The translations under genes were made by a program, and so were the position numbers. Below are positions 16,457 to 28,982 of a stretch of 64,000 nucleotides of DNA, one piece after another (within the stretch, counting starts at the first letter, position 1; every line of letters begins with the position of its first letter). Origin of the DNA: Acidobacteriota bacterium. Its GTDB lineage: Bacteria > Acidobacteriota > UBA4820. A model generated the notes under the pieces. That model was not told the DNA's origin. It saw only the letters and a list, made by a program, of their open reading frames with translations, and made no database searches. The stretch spans positions 1 to 64,000 of the forward strand of contig JAKQCT010000034.1 in assembly GCA_029559035.1 (NCBI GenBank). Direction: 5' to 3'.

Positions 16457-18463
16457 TCACCAGGAATATGTCACAAGAAGCCTCATGCCGAAGGGGCGGG
16501 CTGGGGAAAAGTAGTCTGTGAAGCCGTTGGTTATGCCGCGGGTCGAGTATTTCCTGTCGAAAATGTTATCCGCCTGAAGTTCGACCGTCACCGGGCCGTT
16601 CTTGTAGCTCGCGCTGAGCGATGCGGCGTAATACGAGGAGAGCTTTTCCCGCTCGTTCGAAAGGTCGTTGCTGAGGTACTGCGGCCCTACATAGCCGAGC
16701 CTGCTTCCCGCCCCGAACCTGCCGCCCTTCCAATCGAGGCCGAGGCTGAAGGAGCTTTCGGGGACCATCGGGACGGCCATCCCGTCATACGGGCCCGCCG
16801 TAGCCTCGCAGTTCCTGATGTTCGCGTTTAAAGAGAGATCGAAGTTCCCGGGCAGGAACAAAGAGATGCTCCCTTCGATTCCTTCCCTTTCGGATTTACC
16901 GATGTTCATGTTCTGCCCGATGAAATGCGCCGGGTCGGTGAGGACGAAGACCGTCTCTTCTCTGAGGAACATCTTGTAGAGCGTGACGTTCGCCTTAAGG
17001 TTGTCGCCGAAATACTTGTAACCGGCCTCGAAGTCGTTGACCCTTGTGGGCTCGAGGTCCGGGTTCGAATAAAACCCGGGATAGGCGAACAGCTCGATGA
17101 CGCCGGGGATCCTGTAGCCTTCGGAAAAAGCGAGGAAGAACGATTCGGATTCGCTTTTGAGGAACGACACCGAGAGCCTTGTCGTCCCCTCCCTGAAAGT
17201 GCGCTTCTCGTCGTTCGACGGGAATAGGATGTCCCTGTAGTCGTACTTCGCCTCGTCAACCCTGTAGCCCGCGTCCATCCTGAACCTCGAAAGAGTATAT
17301 CCCAGCCGGATATAGCCTCCCGCGGTATCCTGCCCGGTGGAGGTGCGGGTCGCGATCATCTGCTTGTTGCCATAGAAATCGGTGTACCACCCAGAAGCGT
17401 CGTAACTTCCATTCGCGGCCTCGCCTGAGAAGGCCCATTCGAAGACGCCTTTCCCGAAGGGTTTCCTGCCGTCGATCTGGAAGATGCCGCCGGCGAGGTC
17501 CTCTTCCCCTGTCGTGAGAAAGCCGGTCATGTACCTTCCCGTCGTAAGGGTATCCCTGTCGTGGTTCCTCGAAAAACCTTCGACGACGAGGTTCACGCTC
17601 TCTCCGAACCTGCGGTTGTAGGTCGCCGCGAACAGCCTGTGCCTGCCCCTCGTCCCGTCATAAAGGTTGTAGGGGGACTGCCTCCTGTCCTCGTTCATCT
17701 CCTTTTCGGTCAACGCGCCCGGGGCGCTTATGGCGCCTCCCTCGTACTTCGCCAGAAGCGAAAGCGAGTCGCCTTCCCCGAAGTTGTAGGTCGCGCGGAC
17801 GATCCAGTCGTCCAGCCTGTGGCCGTCGTTCTCCCTGTATCCCTCCGAACGGTCGGTACCGAAGGCCGACACGAGGTCCCAGTTACCCAGCGAACCAGAG
17901 AAGGAGAGCCTTTCCGTCACGCCCCCGAAGCTTCCCAGCCCGGCGGTGAGGTCTATCCTCGGCAGTCCCGCGCCCTTTTTCGTAACGATGTTGACCACGC
18001 CGCCTATCGCGCCTCCGCCGTAGAGCGGGGCGAGCGCGCCGGAGTAGATCTCTATTCTCTCTATCTGCGAAAGGGGGACGACATCCCACCTTACCGAGTT
18101 GTCTTCGATGTTGTTGAGCCTCACGCCGTCGAGGAAACAAGAAACGCTCGTCCCCTCGGGAAATCCCCTGAGGTCTATCGTCCTTTCGACGGGATTGCCG
18201 GTGATGTCGTGCACGGCCACACCCGGGATGTCCGATAAAAGCTGCTGGATCGTCGCCGCTCCGGAACTCTCGATGTCGTCACGAGTGATGACTATTATCG
18301 GCGCCGGAGTCAGTGTCGCCTGCCGCTCCTCCAGAGGGATCCTGTCGCCGTAGACGGTGATCGAAGATTCATAGACCGCCAGCTTCCTCGAGGGATCGTC
18401 GCAGGAGGCGTTCAACGCGGTAAAGAGCAGCAGAGCGATCGCAACAACGAATTCCTTTTTCAT
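16457..18463 (-). CDS. btuB: TonB-dependent receptor, BtuB-like (cobalamin uptake)
   Basis: 668 aa with signal peptide (MKKEFVVAIALLLFTALNA). The plug domain (about 45-160) has the usual phrases PIIVITRDDIESSGAATIQQ, DIPGVAV, IDLRGFPEGTSV and IERIEIYSGALAPLYGGGAIGGVVNIVTKK. The remaining 500 residues are a beta-barrel ending in the outer-membrane signature Trp (VTYSW). A possible TonB box is SSITVYG near 33. Last gene of an operon preceded by btuD, btuC and btuF homologs and a cobalamin riboswitch, so cobamide transport across the outer membrane is the natural assignment, rather than iron-siderophore. Confidence 0.88.
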   Translation of the reverse strand: MKKEFVVAIALLLFTALNASCDDPSRKLAVYESSITVYGDRIPLEERQATLTPAPIIVITRDDIESSGAATIQQLLSDIPGVAVHDITGNPVERTIDLRGFPEGTSVSCFLDGVRLNNIEDNSVRWDVVPLSQIERIEIYSGALAPLYGGGAIGGVVNIVTKKGAGLPRIDLTAGLGSFGGVTERLSFSGSLGNWDLVSAFGTDRSEGYRENDGHRLDDWIVRATYNFGEGDSLSLLAKYEGGAISAPGALTEKEMNEDRRQSPYNLYDGTRGRHRLFAATYNRRFGESVNLVVEGFSRNHDRDTLTTGRYMTGFLTTGEEDLAGGIFQIDGRKPFGKGVFEWAFSGEAANGSYDASGWYTDFYGNKQMIATRTSTGQDTAGGYIRLGYTLSRFRMDAGYRVDEAKYDYRDILFPSNDEKRTFREGTTRLSVSFLKSESESFFLAFSEGYRIPGVIELFAYPGFYSNPDLEPTRVNDFEAGYKYFGDNLKANVTLYKMFLREETVFVLTDPAHFIGQNMNIGKSEREGIEGSISLFLPGNFDLSLNANIRNCEATAGPYDGMAVPMVPESSFSLGLDWKGGRFGAGSRLGYVGPQYLSNDLSNEREKLSSYYAASLSASYKNGPVTVELQADNIFDRKYSTRGITNGFTDYFSPARPFGMRLLVTYSW

Positions 18464-18480
18464 CGCATATTCCCCTTATT

Positions 18481-19257
18481 TCAGTTCGAACCGTTCTTTT
18501 TCGGATAGTAGTATGAAAAATCGTGGATGTCGATCGAAGAAAAATCGACGAAGTATGTCTCCTTGAGAAGGCTCTCCATCGCGCCCCTCTCCTTGGGCGC
18601 CTCGACGAACTCTCCGCCCTTTTTGAGGACGAAGAGCCTGTGGTTGAACTGTATCGAGATGTTGAAGTCGTGGACCGCGTAGATGACGGTCTTCCCTTCC
18701 GTCGAAAGCCTGTCGAAGAGCCCGCAGATCCTCAGCCTGTGGGCGAGGTCGAGGTGGTTCATCGGCTCGTCCATGACCAGTATCGGGCAGTCCTGCACGA
18801 GGCATCTTGCGATCAGGCCCCGCTGGAGCTCTCCGCCGCTCAGGGTAGAAATGGGCCTCTCCCAGAGGTCTTCGAGTTCTAAAAGTTCCCCTGCCTCCCG
18901 CTTTTTCTTCTGGATGAATTCTCCGAAAGAACCGCCGCCGCGTCTCGGGAAACCGCCCTTCTCGGCAAGTTCCCAGAGGCTCCATTCCTGCGGCTGGACG
19001 GACCTCTGCGGGAGGTAGGATATCGTCTCCGCCCTCTCCTTATGGCTCGTTTCGGAGATGCTTTTTCCCTTGCAGATGATCTCCCCTTCGCAAGGCTTGA
19101 GGAGGCCGAGAAGAAGTTTTAAAAACGTCGTCTTGCCAGCGCCGTTGGGGCCGAGGATGGCCGTGACCGAACCGGGCGGAAAGAGAGCCGAGAAACCCTT
19201 TACAAGGCTCTCCCCCGAGCCGTACGCGAAGGAGACTCCCCTGGCCTCAAGAGTCAT
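18481..19257 (-). CDS. btuD: ABC transporter ATPase, cobalamin/siderophore type
   Basis: 258 aa. Walker A LGPNGAGKTTFLKLLLGLL (about 35-53), Q-loop SYLPQRSV, signature LSGGELQRG, Walker B ILVMDEPMNHLD and H-loop IYAVHDFN are all intact. It belongs to the FecE/BtuD group that powers importers for iron-siderophores and cobamides. Its start overlaps the permease 3' end by 11 bases. The riboswitch upstream of the operon points to cobamide import across the inner membrane. Confidence 0.88.
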   Translation of the reverse strand: MTLEARGVSFAYGSGESLVKGFSALFPPGSVTAILGPNGAGKTTFLKLLLGLLKPCEGEIICKGKSISETSHKERAETISYLPQRSVQPQEWSLWELAEKGGFPRRGGGSFGEFIQKKKREAGELLELEDLWERPISTLSGGELQRGLIARCLVQDCPILVMDEPMNHLDLAHRLRICGLFDRLSTEGKTVIYAVHDFNISIQFNHRLFVLKKGGEFVEAPKERGAMESLLKETYFVDFSSIDIHDFSYYYPKKNGSN

Positions 19258-20200
19258 TGAAAAGCTCCTTCTTCATGAGCAGGGCGAAGAAAAACAGTAT
19301 CCCGACGAAATTGATGTAAAGGCCTACGGGCACTATCACGATGGATGAAACGGCCTTCGTCATGACATATGCTGCAAGCATCAGCGCCGGGCCGAGGATC
19401 ACGGAAGCGGCGAAGAGCCTGCCGAAGGAATTGCCGAAAACGGAGCGGGCGATGTGCGGAACGATCAGCCCCACGAAACCTATCATCCCCGCGATAGAAA
19501 CGGCCGTAGTCGCGAGCAGGGAGGCTCCCGCGAGCGAAGCGAACCTCACCTTCGCCACATCGACTCCGAGCGATGACGCCTCGTCGTCTGAGAAAGAGAG
19601 GATGTCGATCGCTTTTCCAGCCCGGAGGAGGACGACCGCGGATATCAGGATCACGCTGAAGGCGAAGGACAGCTCGAAGGAAGAGATGGGATAGATAAAC
19701 CCTATGAGAAGAGTGTTGGTGGCGGCCAGTTCCGCCGGGTCGAGGAATGAAACTATGAGCCGCGCGAGTGCCGCGAAGGCTGTGTTGAGAAGGACGCCTG
19801 CGAGAAGCATCCTTTCCGGATTGCCTTTGGAAACCTTCATGAGAAGGACAAGAGACCCGCCTCCGATAACGAATGCCGAGAGAGCCCTCAGCGGGAAAGC
19901 CGCCCCGCCCATCCCCACGAGAAGCAAGGAAAGAGTTACTCCGAAAGCGCCGCCGCCTGATATTCCCACGACGTAGGAGTCGGCGAGGGGGTTTCTGAGC
20001 ACCACCTGGAACACCAGCCCCGAAACAGCGAGAGCGACGCCCGTCAGAACTGCCGAAAGGATCTCCGGCAGCCTTATATTCAGAATCACCGTTTTCATTC
20101 CTTCCCGGTCGATGTTCTGGGGGAGAAAAAGAAAGAACGAGGCCAAAATCAGAAGGACCAGCAGCAGCGGGATGATGAGGAAACCGCCTTTCAGATTCAC
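19247..20200 (-). CDS. btuC: FecCD-family permease, cobalamin importer
   Basis: 317 aa, about ten membrane helices. FecCD landmarks: LRLPEILSAVLTGVALAVSG near the N-terminus (RLPR-like motif), VVLRNPLADSYVVGISGGGAFG, GMIGFVGLIVPHIARSVFG and the C-terminal VPVGLYINFVGILFFF. GTG start overlaps the TGA of btuF (GTGA). Forms the transmembrane dimer of the importer with the ATPase next door. Confidence 0.9.
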   Translation of the reverse strand: MNLKGGFLIIPLLLVLLILASFFLFLPQNIDREGMKTVILNIRLPEILSAVLTGVALAVSGLVFQVVLRNPLADSYVVGISGGGAFGVTLSLLLVGMGGAAFPLRALSAFVIGGGSLVLLMKVSKGNPERMLLAGVLLNTAFAALARLIVSFLDPAELAATNTLLIGFIYPISSFELSFAFSVILISAVVLLRAGKAIDILSFSDDEASSLGVDVAKVRFASLAGASLLATTAVSIAGMIGFVGLIVPHIARSVFGNSFGRLFAASVILGPALMLAAYVMTKAVSSIVIVPVGLYINFVGILFFFALLMKKELFNDS

Positions 20201-21012
20201 TTCTTGTTTTCCCTCCTCAGTTCCGCCAGCTTTTCCACGCCTTCTACGACCCGCGGCCCCGGCCTCATGATAAGGTCGGCGTTTATTTCCCCGATCCTGG
20301 TGTTTTTATCGATGGCTCTGATCCTGCGGACGAACTCTTCACGGGAATCCTTACCTATCTCGCCTTCGGGAAGGATTATCCAGTCGGGGTCCAATCCCGC
20401 GATCGTGTCGAAGGAGATGACGGAATATGACGGAGGGACCTGCTCGAGAACGTTGACAAATCCAGCGGCCCGGCACAGGTCGTTGAGGTACGACCCCTTT
20501 CCGGCGGCGACCGCCGGATCGAGCCCGACCAAAAAGATCGCGCGTTCTTTTTTGAATGGAATTTCCTTTGAAATTTTCTCTACAGATTTTCTTATTCTTT
20601 CCGCGAGTTTGCCGGCCTCTGCCTCCCGCCCGCATTTCCGGCCTATATCGTATATGCACGCGATGAGCTCTTCAAGCGTCGAGACCGGATACTCGGTCAC
20701 ACTGATCCCCAGCCTTCTGATAACTCCGAGCGACTCGCCGCTCTGCATCCCCGAGACCGTAAGGCATTCCCGCGGACGCATGGCCGCGATCTTTTCAAAA
20801 AGGATACCGTCGTAGGACGCCACGATCTCTTTCTTCGCGGCCTCCGCGGGATGATCGGCGGGTGCTGTGACACCGGCAAGGCTGTCTCCAGCTCCTATCG
20901 CGAAGATTATCTCCGTTGTCGAAGGGGAAAGGCTGATGAACCTTCCGCCCGGCCTTTCGGCGAAGACGGCGAAACAGGCGATAAGAATTATAAAACAAAA
21001 ACAGCGTCTCAT
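20197..21012 (-). CDS. btuF: Periplasmic cobalamin-binding protein
   Basis: 271 aa from the ATG at 21012 (AAAGGTGAAA upstream); an upstream extension to 21081 runs into the riboswitch and is rejected. Signal peptide MRRCFCFIILIACFAVFA. The mature part is a BtuF/FepB-type binding protein: ISLSPSTTEIIFAIGAGDSLAGVT, YPVSTLEELIACI, ERAIFLVGLDP, SFDTIAGLDPDWIILPE. It delivers cobamides to BtuCD. First structural gene after the riboswitch. Confidence 0.88.
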   Translation of the reverse strand: MRRCFCFIILIACFAVFAERPGGRFISLSPSTTEIIFAIGAGDSLAGVTAPADHPAEAAKKEIVASYDGILFEKIAAMRPRECLTVSGMQSGESLGVIRRLGISVTEYPVSTLEELIACIYDIGRKCGREAEAGKLAERIRKSVEKISKEIPFKKERAIFLVGLDPAVAAGKGSYLNDLCRAAGFVNVLEQVPPSYSVISFDTIAGLDPDWIILPEGEIGKDSREEFVRRIRAIDKNTRIGEINADLIMRPGPRVVEGVEKLAELRRENKK

Positions 21013-21083
21013 TTTCACCTTTCGGGGGGTCTTGAGACGCCGGAAAAGACGTTCTCCCGCGAGAACGGCCGTTCTGTGCATCC

Positions 21084-21248
21084 CAAGGCAGGTCTCCTGG
21101 CTTACGGGTCTTTCTACTCGCGGCGCCTTCCCGCCCGTGTGGGCAGTGGCAAAAAGCCGCTTTCGTCGCCGATCACAGTGACGGGGTCGCAGCCGGATCT
21201 CACGGCATTTCCCTTTTCACCCCCTGTGAAGGGGCACCTTGGCGCTCC
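21084..21248 (-). promoter_or_regulatory. Cobalamin (AdoCbl-class) riboswitch controlling btuFCD-btuB
   Basis: On the minus strand the conserved order is present: GGTG...AAAAGGGAA near the 5' end, the ATCCGGC and GACCCCGTCACTGTGA core, GCCACTGCCCACACGGGCGGGAAGG arm, and the closing AAGCCAGGAGACCTGCC at 21088-21105. Between it and the btuF start (21013-21083) lie alternative hairpins (GTTCTCGCGGGAGAAC; GACCCCCC beside the AAAGGTG ribosome site), which can serve as the expression platform. Binding of adenosylcobalamin is expected to turn off the importer operon. Confidence 0.9.
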
Positions 21249-21263
21249 GGTTTTTAAATAGGA

Positions 21264-21504: not shown

Positions 21505-24500
21505 CTATTTCAACTTGAAAGGAATCCCGAACGTCATCTGAGTCTTGACCGGCACGCCGTCCTTCACGGCGGGGGCGAACTGCCACTGCATAGCCGCCTT
21601 AACGCATTCGTCCTTGAGGCCGTAGTCGGGCGAAGGCCCGCGGACCACTTCGGCGGCGGTGACCTTGCCTTCCTCGTTCACGCTCATCTGGACATAGTAT
21701 GTGCCCTCTACCTTGTTCTGCCTGGCGAGTGCGGTATAGACGGGTTCAGCCCTCTTGATCACCTTCGGCCTTTCGCTGTCGAGGAGGTCCGGGAGAGGAA
21801 CGAACTGGCCCCGTTCCGTCTTTTTGGGCTGGGCTGCGGCTTTTGCCGCATCGTCCGCCTTCTTCTTGTCTTCCTCGGCCTTGAGCCTCGCCGCCTCGTC
21901 GGCCTTTTCCTTCTCCTTCTGGGCCTTCAGGGCCGCCACGTCGTCCTTCGACTTGTTCGCACTGTCGAGGCCGGACTTCGCAGCTTTCGATATCGCGTCG
22001 AACTCGCCGATGCTCTTGGCGTTCCTGAACAGCCTGTCCATGTTGCCCTTGCTCTTCTTCAGGGATTCGAGAGCCTGGGGCGCGTGTTCCGCGGCTCCGG
22101 CGGCCTCGACCGCCTTTATGGCGTCGTCGAAGCTCTTGAGCGCCGTCGTCGCCGCCGTCTTTGCTTTTTCGACGTCGGCTGGGTTTTCGGCAGTCGCCGG
22201 CGGAGGCGGGACCTCAGGCGTTATTTCCTTCGGCGCCTCGGGGACCTTCGGCTGGGTATCGGCGGGCTTGGTATCCGTAACGGCAGGTTTCTCTTCCGCG
22301 GGAGGAGCCGGCTTCTTGCCTCCGAAGAGGAGGAATCCGATAATGGCGAGAACCACCACTCCGCCGACAATCCCGCCGATCATCATCATTTTCTTCTTGC
22401 CTTCGCCCGCGTCCTCATCGGCCGCGACGCTGGAGAAAAGCTCCTCCTTCTTTTCGGCAGGCTTCGGCGGAGGCGGAGCCTCCTTTTGAACGGGTTTTGG
22501 CGGTGGCGGGGCGGCCTTCTTCTCTTCTACCGGCCTGGGTTTCTCTACCGGCTTTGGAGGGGGAGGCGGCGGCACGACCTTGACCGTGTCGACCTTCTTC
22601 TTCTCCTCCGCTTCTTTCTGGGGCTGCTGCAGGCCTGCTTCGGCCTCTTCCTTTTCCCTGCTGAGCGCTTCCAGCTTCTCCTTCGTGTAAACGGAGGGGA
22701 AAAGGTTCGAAAGGAAGGAGACCGTATCGTACGCGGTGGTCACGAACGCCATCTGCCTCGAGAATTTTTCAAGGTCCGCTTCGAGGCTTCTCGCGTCGCG
22801 GTAGCGGCGGTCGGGATCTTTCTCGAGCGAGCGCCTGATTATCTTTTCCAGCTGCTGCGGGATCAGTTCCTTGAACGGCTCGAAGTCGGGGACCTTCGCC
22901 TCGCGGACGCGTTCCAATATCGACATCTCCGAGTCGCCGTAGAAAAGCTTCTTCCCCGTGAGCATTTCGAAGAGGACCGTTCCGACCGAGAAAATGTCGC
23001 TCCTTCCGTCAAGCGTCTTTCCCCATGCCTGTTCCGGGGACATGTAAAGAAGCTTGCCCTTCAGCGCTCCCGTCTGGGTGTGGCTGGCCTTGCTCGCTGC
23101 CTTCGCTATGCCGAAGTCCACGAGTTTAACTTCGCCGGCGGAAGAAATGAGGATGTTCTGCGGGGAGACATCCCTGTGAACCAGCTTCATCGCCTTCCCG
23201 TCGGCGTCCTTAGCGGTGTGGGCGTAATGGAGCGCGGAGCAGACCTTCCTCGCGATGTAAACGGCCGTCTTCAGGGGGACCGTCTCCTGGAGAGGTTCGC
23301 ACTCCTTGAGGATGCTCCTCAGGTCGCGCCCCTCCACATACTCCATCGCTATGAAGTAGGCGTCGCTCTTCTTTCCCAGGTCGTAGATATGGACTATGTT
23401 GGGATGATTGAGCTGGGCGGCGAGCTTCGCTTCGTCTATGAACATCGTGACGAAATCGGAATTTGTGGCCAGGTGGGGAAGGATCTTCTTTATCGCGACG
23501 ATCCTCTGGAACCCTTCGAGCCCGACCTGTTTAGCCTTGAAGAGCTCGGCCATGCCGCCTGTTGCGATCTTGTCCTGAAGCTCGTACTGACCGAAAAGCA
23601 TCTTCCCTTCGCCGGTGTCTTCTATTTTGGAGGGCGCGGCGGGTTTCACCTCGGCGGGCAGGGGCTTGGGCTCTGGCGCCGGAGCGGGTTTCGGAGGTTC
23701 GGGGAGCTTAACTTCCGGCATTTCAGGAGCTTTTTTAGCCGGAGCGCTCTTCAGCTTGACCCCCGAAAGGGTTTCCTCCAGTTTCTTGTCAATTGACGAT
23801 TTGGCTTCGGGTTCGGCTTTGGCCGCGGGTTTCTCGATCCTGGGGATATCTATCTTGGGAATCTGAGGAGGGGCGGAAGGCTTCGCGGGCTCCGCGGCCT
23901 TCTGAGGCTCGCCGAGCGCCGCTCCGATGTCTATCTTCGGAGAGGTCCCCGGCTCCTTGCCTTTCACGATCTTCTGCTCGACTCCTTTTATCACATCCCC
24001 GAACAGCTCTTCCGAAGTTACCTGGCTTTCAGGAACCTGCGCGGGCGGAGGCTGCACCGCCTTGGGAGGTTCGGCCGGTTTCGGCGGAGGAGGAGGTAGT
24101 GGCGGAGGAGGAGGCGGAGGGGGTGGCGGAGGAGGCGGCGGCGGAGGCGGGGGCGGAGCCGTTTCCTTCTTTGGCTCCGGAATCGGAGGAGGAGGAGCGG
24201 CAGCAGGAGCGGCCTCTTTTTTCTTTGTGGGCATCGACAGGCCCGAGAGTGTGTCTTCTAGAGCCTTGTCTATGTCAAGCCCTGGTTTTTTCTTCGGCTC
24301 TCTCGGGGCCTCCTTCTGCACCTCGATAACAGGCGGAGCGGGAGCCTGGACCTGCGGGGCCTCCCTCTTTTCTTCTGCTTGCGGAGCAGGCGCAACTTCT
24401 TTCTTTCCGAGATAGGTCTCCATCGCGGAGAGGAGAACCTGTTCTTCGATGGGGTCTTCGAGGTAATCGGCGGCGCCGTATATCTTGGTCGCGTCGGCCT

Positions 24501-24771
24501 TGTACTTCCTGCTCTTGTAGATGCTGCAGTGCATTATGATCGGGATGCTCTTTTTCTTCTCGACCATCTCCTGGCACACCTGGAAGCCGTGTTTCTTGGG
24601 AAGCATCGTCCTCAGGAGGACCAGGTCGGGACCGATCTTGTCGAATTCCTCGATGGCCTGTATCCCGTCCTTGGCGGTAAAAACCTCGTAAACATCCGTT
24701 GGGATAAGGGAGATCAGCCTGTCGAGAGCCTTGGGTTCATAATCAACAACAAGAATTTTCTTCTTAGCCAT
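21505..24771 (-). CDS. Receiver - Ser/Thr kinase - TonB C-terminal fusion
   Basis: 1088 aa. Residues 1-120: CheY-like receiver with altered active site (Y11, R54 at the phospho-Asp position, D106 at the Lys position). Residues 125-390: Pro-rich linker including 19 consecutive Pro. Residues about 392-670: PknB-type kinase with G-loop ATGGMAELFKA, AIKK Lys, HRDVSPQN catalytic loop, DFGIAKA and SPEQAWG. About 792-815: single membrane span (MMIGGIVGGVVVLAIIGFLLFG). About 850-980: long charged helix. About 985-1088: TonB/AgmX-like C-terminal domain (VEGTYYVQMSVNEEGKV; AAMQWQFAPAVKDG). Topology puts the kinase in the cytoplasm and TonB domain in the periplasm. Role unknown; all catalytic kinase residues are present. 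Confidence 0.85.
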   Translation of the reverse strand: MAKKKILVVDYEPKALDRLISLIPTDVYEVFTAKDGIQAIEEFDKIGPDLVLLRTMLPKKHGFQVCQEMVEKKKSIPIIMHCSIYKSRKYKADATKIYGAADYLEDPIEEQVLLSAMETYLGKKEVAPAPQAEEKREAPQVQAPAPPVIEVQKEAPREPKKKPGLDIDKALEDTLSGLSMPTKKKEAAPAAAPPPPIPEPKKETAPPPPPPPPPPPPPPPPPPPLPPPPPKPAEPPKAVQPPPAQVPESQVTSEELFGDVIKGVEQKIVKGKEPGTSPKIDIGAALGEPQKAAEPAKPSAPPQIPKIDIPRIEKPAAKAEPEAKSSIDKKLEETLSGVKLKSAPAKKAPEMPEVKLPEPPKPAPAPEPKPLPAEVKPAAPSKIEDTGEGKMLFGQYELQDKIATGGMAELFKAKQVGLEGFQRIVAIKKILPHLATNSDFVTMFIDEAKLAAQLNHPNIVHIYDLGKKSDAYFIAMEYVEGRDLRSILKECEPLQETVPLKTAVYIARKVCSALHYAHTAKDADGKAMKLVHRDVSPQNILISSAGEVKLVDFGIAKAASKASHTQTGALKGKLLYMSPEQAWGKTLDGRSDIFSVGTVLFEMLTGKKLFYGDSEMSILERVREAKVPDFEPFKELIPQQLEKIIRRSLEKDPDRRYRDARSLEADLEKFSRQMAFVTTAYDTVSFLSNLFPSVYTKEKLEALSREKEEAEAGLQQPQKEAEEKKKVDTVKVVPPPPPPKPVEKPRPVEEKKAAPPPPKPVQKEAPPPPKPAEKKEELFSSVAADEDAGEGKKKMMMIGGIVGGVVVLAIIGFLLFGGKKPAPPAEEKPAVTDTKPADTQPKVPEAPKEITPEVPPPPATAENPADVEKAKTAATTALKSFDDAIKAVEAAGAAEHAPQALESLKKSKGNMDRLFRNAKSIGEFDAISKAAKSGLDSANKSKDDVAALKAQKEKEKADEAARLKAEEDKKKADDAAKAAAQPKKTERGQFVPLPDLLDSERPKVIKRAEPVYTALARQNKVEGTYYVQMSVNEEGKVTAAEVVRGPSPDYGLKDECVKAAMQWQFAPAVKDGVPVKTQMTFGIPFKLK

Positions 24772-27692: not shown

Positions 27693-28982
27693 TCAATTCC
27701 TCGACCAGTGGTCGATCATCTTCATGTACATCTCCCTGTCGAAATTGGGGGAATCCCTTTTGGTGTGACATTTGAGACAGGCGCCGGCCGCCTCTTCGGC
27801 AGGGGCGTGCCGCTCCGGCGGATGCCCTTCCCCGGGGCCGTGGCAGCTTTCGCATCCGACCCCCGACAACGATTCTTTCATTGCGGGGTAGCCTCCCCCC
27901 CGGAACCCGGTAACGTGACACGGCAGGCATTCAGTGTTGTTCTGCTGGTGGTCTATCTCGAGCGTGGCCAAGGCGGACCCGTGGCCGGTCTTCTTCCAGA
28001 TGTCGTATTCCTTCGCGTGACATCCTCCGCAGTGATCGCTGCCATTGAAAGAAGGACCCGCGGGTTTGACGACGCTTTTTTCAAGCTCCGAGAGGTTGAT
28101 CTCCTCGGCTTTCTTCATGGTCTCCCGCACGCGCTCTTCCACCTTCGCGTCGCCTTCGAGCGACCTGTGGATGTATTCGCATTTGGGCCATATCTCCCAC
28201 CGCCCGTCGAAGTAGCCTATCTCGAGCAGGGCGTACCTCCTGCCCCTGTCGCCCAAAAAAACGACCCATGTATCGTCAGCCTTCTGGGGCAGGGTGGTTA
28301 CCATGTGGCCCCAGACCGAAACTATTGCCAGCAGGTCCGCCTTCTCCTTGACCATTTCCTGGATCTTCATGGTGGATAGGTTGCCCAACACTATGTAGGT
28401 GTCCTGGGGCGCCTCCCGCACCTTCTTCCTGAAAACCTCAAGAGGGTCGTCCAGTTTCTTCCCCAGCAGGGCCGTCTCGGAGATGAACAACAGCCTCAGC
28501 TTTCCCTTCTTGCCGAAAGGCAGGTACCTGTACCCCCCCAGTTCCACGACCACATCATCCCTGTACCCGGCCATCCCGGCAAGGTGGTATTCCCCTTTGT
28601 AGTATTCTTTCAGTTTATTGCCGAGCTCGAGGTCTCTCGGCCCCGCGGAAACAAGGTAGTTCTCGGACTTGAGGAAATCTCCGAACGCCGTATTTATGAC
28701 ATCTTTCGCGGGCCCCCTGTCCATGAAAAGAGGCGACAGCTCGACCGGAACGACCCTTCTTCCCGGATTCTCCCTGCGGGCGTCATCGATGAGAGTTACC
28801 CTCCTCGACAGCCCTCCAGCGGGCGAGGTCCTGCAACCGCACGGAAGCAGGTACCCTTCGGCCCCCCCGGTCACGAAAACCGCGAGCTCGTTCTCCCCCC
28901 TCAGGGCCTGCAGGCCCAGGAGAAGGGCCAGCAGAAGGATCACGGCGGCGGAGAACGCGAGGATCTTCATCTTTTGGCTCAT
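27693..28982 (-). CDS. Exported four-heme cytochrome c with 5'-nucleotidase-like N domain
   Basis: 429 aa; signal anchor MKILAFSAAVILLLALLLGL. Four CxxCH motifs lie in the last 115 residues (CGGCH near 315, CLPCH, CESCH, CLKCH near 402), with extra His residues (GHGSAL, HPPERH) for distal ligation; this resembles the cytochrome c554 family. The first 290 residues resemble a degenerate metallophosphatase (FVTGGAEGYLLPCGC, SAGPRDLELG, LVLGNLS-like, SVWGHMV) found fused to such cytochromes. Periplasmic electron transfer is expected; redox partner unknown. Confidence 0.85.
   Translation of the reverse strand: MSQKMKILAFSAAVILLLALLLGLQALRGENELAVFVTGGAEGYLLPCGCRTSPAGGLSRRVTLIDDARRENPGRRVVPVELSPLFMDRGPAKDVINTAFGDFLKSENYLVSAGPRDLELGNKLKEYYKGEYHLAGMAGYRDDVVVELGGYRYLPFGKKGKLRLLFISETALLGKKLDDPLEVFRKKVREAPQDTYIVLGNLSTMKIQEMVKEKADLLAIVSVWGHMVTTLPQKADDTWVVFLGDRGRRYALLEIGYFDGRWEIWPKCEYIHRSLEGDAKVEERVRETMKKAEEINLSELEKSVVKPAGPSFNGSDHCGGCHAKEYDIWKKTGHGSALATLEIDHQQNNTECLPCHVTGFRGGGYPAMKESLSGVGCESCHGPGEGHPPERHAPAEEAAGACLKCHTKRDSPNFDREMYMKMIDHWSRN

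Follow-up and report, generated by a model that had tools for sequence, protein, structure and literature searches.

A conserved Acidobacteriota Ser/Thr kinase with a degenerate receiver, a TonB-type domain and a co-occurring pseudokinase paralogue

Here we describe a gene from a 64,000-nucleotide stretch of an Acidobacteriota genome (the window) that encodes, in one chain of 1088 amino acids, a pseudo-receiver (REC), a Ser/Thr kinase, a transmembrane (TM) span and a TonB C-terminal (TonB_C) domain. The gene is real and conserved, and is of interest as a likely component of a two-chain receptor kinase rather than as a mechanically pulled kinase. Sequences and models reveal active kinase motifs, one span, a TonB-fold domain, a conserved non-phosphorylatable receiver, linker motifs and the co-occurrence of a pseudokinase. 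The parts are of known kinds (aspartate-less receivers, Hanks-type kinases and TonB_C), and a literature search, with most subscription journals outside its coverage, found no description of a REC–kinase–TonB_C protein or of its pseudokinase partner.

The gene occupies positions 21505–24771 of the minus strand as one open frame, read from 24771, with an ATG start and a plausible GAGG-type ribosome site. Its product runs in the order receiver, Pro-rich linker, Ser/Thr kinase, one membrane span, periplasmic coil and TonB_C. Three Pfam matches, all above their cut-offs, mark Response_reg (residues 6–117, 54.7 bits), Pkinase (396–657, 146.5 bits) and TonB_C (1009–1087, 47.8 bits); with models of both end domains, they bear out the three-part chain that an earlier note on this DNA had read in the gene. 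A scan of named genomes yielded 80 loci, mostly from Thermoanaerobaculia and other Acidobacteriota, plus the candidate division CSSED10-310. At least 44 of these loci have REC, kinase and TonB_C in that order (REC–kinase–TM–TonB_C in 44 loci from other genomes). Orthologues in many genomes and the shared order rule out chance, a one-off fusion or an assembly artefact. A kinase-domain profile detected exactly one copy per positive genome, in 30 of 60 relatives and in 88 of 297 Acidobacteriota genomes, across many families of the phylum.

The degenerate receiver (residues 4–122; 24406–24762, minus strand) was modelled with AlphaFold using 49 sequences (pLDDT 92). The model shows the alternating fold canonical for receivers, and among PDB structures YycF/VicR receivers match it best. 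R54 (24610–24612, minus strand), at the phospho-Asp position, ends strand 3; D10 and Y11 (24739–24744, minus strand) lie in the strand-1 loop; and D106 (24454–24456, minus strand), at the switch-Lys position, follows strand 5. Because the fold is canonical and best matches YycF and VicR, these degenerate residues stand at true active-site positions. This settles the worry that they had been misaligned, and all four read from the sequence as the earlier note gave them. Where a canonical response regulator has an acidic pair, a phospho-Asp, a Thr/Ser and a Lys, this chain has D-Y, R54 and D106; it combines the receiver fold with an Arg at the phosphoacceptor position, as expected of an aspartate-less receiver. 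The claim that such a receiver cannot take phosphate in the usual way applies to nearly the whole family. Across 49 aligned receivers the phospho-Asp position holds Ser in 21, Thr in 17, Arg in 5, Ala in 2, Asp in 2, Cys in 1 and Asn in 1, and both Asp54-bearing receivers carry Asn10 and Glu106. The switch position is K or R in 40 of 49 relatives, and Arg54 and Asp106 are particular to the window's order.

The signature of the family is the tyrosine. Tyr11, within [DE]-Y-E-P, occurs in 47 of 49 receivers, and in every phylum member with a receiver that spans this position, even where the adjoining acid is lost; Y85 (24517–24519, minus strand), in the strand-4/helix-4 loop, is also near-invariant (47/49). 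One exception, locus L221 of genome G197, has D10, Y11, D54, a Thr and K106, and misses only the second acid. Receivers without the Asp amount to about 4% in general (PMC4395418), compared with 47 of 49 here, and we therefore regard this as a family-wide, selected pseudo-receiver. It resembles the aspartate-less receivers (ALRs; RitR, FrzS, AglZ and KaiA), which have the receiver fold without the phospho-Asp and act with no need for phosphorylation of an Asp. Acidobacteria are enriched in ALRs, as are Ser/Thr kinase modules (PMC4395418), and the FrzS pseudo-receiver functions without Asp phosphorylation or Mg (PMC1974792). Unlike these, the window family combines the [DE]-Y-E-P signature and near-invariant Tyr85 with loss of the Asp family-wide and fusion to a transmembrane kinase with TonB_C.

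Short conserved motifs punctuate the Pro-rich linker. Linker motif 1, DIDKALEDTLSGL (residues 166–178; 24238–24276, minus strand), contains the TL[SA]G motif, and TSEELFGDV (residues 252–260; 23992–24018, minus strand) follows the pattern S-x-[ED]-[LI]-F-G-[DE]. The former, within [ILV]-D/E-[KR]-x-[LI]-x-x-T-L-[SA]-G, is present in 45 of 45 family linkers (0.6 expected from shuffles) and the latter in 30 of 45 (0.04 expected), where the expectations serve as a guide only, the patterns having been picked after viewing a few members. A motif scan of family linkers also gave linker motif 2, SIDKKLEETLSGV (residues 326–338; 23758–23796, minus strand). The LFGD-type motif is retained in kinases of family f23 that have lost TonB_C.

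The kinase domain (residues 392–668; 22768–23598, minus strand; Pfam 146.5 bits) carries K428, E447, HRD at 532–534, N539 and DFG at 552–554. These nine catalytic-motif residues are invariant in 73 of 73 kinases and, with a Pfam Pkinase score above the cut-off, identify the domain as Hanks-type; we infer from them that it is catalytically active, in keeping with the description of an intact kinase in the earlier note. A single membrane span follows (residues 797–818; 22318–22383, minus strand; hydropathy scan), and in 58 of 58 members one strongly hydrophobic span separates the kinase from TonB_C. An Ala/Lys-rich helical coil, predicted to be periplasmic (residues 865–985; 21817–22179, minus strand) and seen both in the sequence and as the long helix that starts the C-terminal model, leads to TonB_C (residues 1009–1087; 21511–21747, minus strand), a domain found by Pfam in 58 of 58 members. 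The 16 best PDB matches of the C-terminal model are all TonB-family C-terminal domains, including that of BtuB:TonB (2gsk). The model thus supports a genuine TonB fold at the periplasmic end and answers the concern that this fold might be lacking.

These modules can part, because genome G021, in which no kinase was found, encodes a natural REC–acidic linker–TM–TonB_C protein (L109:3949–7287) whose kinase domain is wholly missing. All three kinases sampled from family f23 (L217, L218 and L220) end after the span, without TonB_C and with the rest kept: a remnant receiver, the LFGD motif and the span are present. Elsewhere in the window's genome, the gene for a TonB_C protein of 191 amino acids is flanked on both sides by Ser/Thr kinase genes, one with WD40-like repeats (C28:28671–32738).

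A TonB_C search of the window's genome uncovered a second chain of 653 amino acids, encoded on another contig than the kinase (C88:42360–44318, minus strand; L141:3861–5819) and hence out of view for the earlier note. It consists of a kinase-like domain, a span, a coil and a TonB_C domain closely resembling that of the window protein, and its kinase-like domain has lost VAIK, HRD and DFG. This pseudokinase–TM–TonB_C protein is present in 13 of 13 genomes of the window's order, and homologues elsewhere also lack HRD and DFG, so the kinase is accompanied by a catalytically dead paralogue of the same layout. Among 47 genomes outside the order that were searched for both proteins, 15 have both, 3 have the kinase only, none has the pseudokinase only and 29 have neither (nominal Fisher p ~1e-9, before phylogenetic correction; about ten families). 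The kinase-only exceptions are family f17 (G027, G040 and G052), which has, in place of the full pseudokinase, a TonB_C protein of 345–353 amino acids (L182:3240–4298, L242 and L244) that aligns to the TM–coil–TonB_C half of the pseudokinase, the kinase-like half being absent. In family f23 a pseudokinase relative was found in 11 of 11 genomes searched, and those read keep TonB_C. An exchange of parts in which the kinase has no TonB_C and the pseudokinase does would be expected if both chains formed one receptor, with one partner supplying the periplasmic domain. The two genes are not adjacent, and we found no conserved neighbours of the pseudokinase. At the level of sequence, these patterns point to a two-part receptor kinase. 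In animals, receptor pseudokinases such as HER3 offer a likeness, in that an active kinase and a dead-kinase paralogue of the same layout occur together; the putative pair described here differs in being bacterial, in its unrelated periplasmic domain and in its Ser/Thr kinase. No dedicated pseudokinase partner of a bacterial receptor kinase was found in the literature searched.

The earlier note suggested that the TonB domain could couple the kinase to outer-membrane energisation or mechanical pull, which would involve ExbB/ExbD-type motors. A genuine TonB fold and the presence of exbB/exbD near the kinase in some relatives would suit this proposal, as would the precedent of Myxococcus GltG, an FHA–TM–TonB_C protein that interacts with the motor protein AglR (PMC3169522). 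However, TonB and TolA depend on the His of the conserved SHLS motif for binding to their motor (PMC12204202), and a motor-binding His is found in 0 of 58 homologous spans of the kinase family, whereas the TonBs encoded next to ExbBD in the same loci carry it. The window's genome has its own His-bearing TonB beside ExbB and two ExbD on a different contig. Because the spans lack the His and a separate TonB accompanies ExbBDD, it is very unlikely that ExbBD motors drive this TonB domain; the three sampled f23 kinases have, in addition, dropped the domain. We consider the pulled kinase highly improbable, and this part of the earlier note is not supported. Identity as an energy-transducing TonB was also rejected: the window protein shares the C-terminal domain and its fold with TonB transducers, but has no ExbB-binding N-terminal Ser/His span, its span being internal, after 790 cytoplasmic residues, and without the Ser/His motor motif. 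GltG (PglI), of the Myxococcus gliding machinery, has the nearest layout, with a cytoplasmic signalling domain, a Pro-rich linker, one span and a periplasmic TonB_C (PMC3169522). It differs in that it lacks a kinase, has an FHA domain that binds phosphothreonine, and binds AglR, whereas the window protein has a kinase, no motor His and no FHA among its Pfam matches, and no glt genes were seen in the stretches examined.

The genomic neighbours hint at TonB-dependent uptake. In the window, a cobalamin riboswitch (21070–21256, minus strand; Rfam RF00174, 119.9 bits) separates the gene from btuF, btuC, btuD and a TonB-dependent receptor, which make up a B12 uptake operon of the standard kind (16457–21256, minus strand, with the riboswitch) that is kept in close relatives. 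In the window, and likewise in 10 other loci from at least two distant groups, the kinase gene is directly followed by a Peripla_BP_2–FecCD–ABC (BtuFCD-like) transporter, a TonB-dependent receptor with a riboswitch also follows in L008, L009 and L011, and exbB, exbD and tonB stand divergently upstream of the kinase, beyond ruvC–yebC, in about 12–13 loci. These arrangements, and the BtuB:TonB complex among the best fold matches, would fit a kinase whose TonB_C samples the TonB boxes of B12 and iron receptors and that reports receptor state without energising. Yet accD, folC, yebC and ruvC, housekeeping neighbours, are equally conserved, and synteny alone may account for the neighbours. The window's transporter operon begins at, and is set apart by, its riboswitch, and a shared operon with the B12 transporter was rejected there; of the ten other loci with a BtuF-like gene directly downstream, seven come from distant groups and have no riboswitch; and the upstream neighbours in the window's order are ffh and a protease. 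We think such an uptake sensor rather unlikely. Also near ffh, the window encodes a UshA-like protein bearing haem motifs of the cytochrome c554 type (27693–28982, minus strand). Housekeeping neighbours would suit a cell-wall kinase, comparable to the PASTA kinases, that controls growth or division with TonB_C domains as peptidoglycan or divisome anchors. The window protein shares with PknB/Stk1 a Hanks-type kinase, one span and a periplasmic or extracellular sensory part, PknB is its top NCBIfam kinase profile, and the gene is single-copy in each genome that has it. The PknB score nevertheless falls far under the cut-off (315.5 versus 450 bits), no PASTA or other peptidoglycan-binding domain is among the Pfam matches of the chain, which has TonB_C and an N-terminal pseudo-receiver, and the kinase is absent from 209 of the 297 phylum genomes; a role of this kind seems to us fairly unlikely.

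We prefer, at about an even chance of being right, a receptor-type Ser/Thr kinase, encoded by a single-copy gene, that acts in the Acidobacteriota envelope together with its same-layout pseudokinase paralogue, the periplasmic TonB-fold domains binding an envelope partner and the pseudo-receiver docking. Kinase and pseudokinase would form a complex through their spans and periplasmic parts, and a periplasmic or outer-membrane partner would bind the TonB-fold domains, probably via an added beta strand, in the manner of TonB boxes. The pseudokinase would then set kinase activity allosterically, and the TonB domain would serve as a sensor or tether, not as an energy transducer. The old active-site face of the receiver now bears two near-invariant tyrosines, and the pseudo-receiver may provide constitutive docking, either to bring in a substrate or to hold the kinase; in the linker, the Thr of TLSG is a candidate site of autophosphorylation or docking. 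We regard it as distinctly unlikely that the TonB-fold ends of a two-chain kinase/pseudokinase sense the occupancy of TonB-box-like peptides from outer-membrane proteins, so that, with a docking pseudo-receiver, outer-membrane transport state is relayed across two membranes to Ser/Thr phosphorylation.

If a TonB-fold domain serves a kinase as its sensor, the state of the outer envelope would have a new path to cytoplasmic phosphorylation. A large share of the Acidobacteriota, a phylum with little-studied signalling, carries one copy of the gene, and the role of a phosphorylation-dead receiver becomes testable through its two tyrosines.
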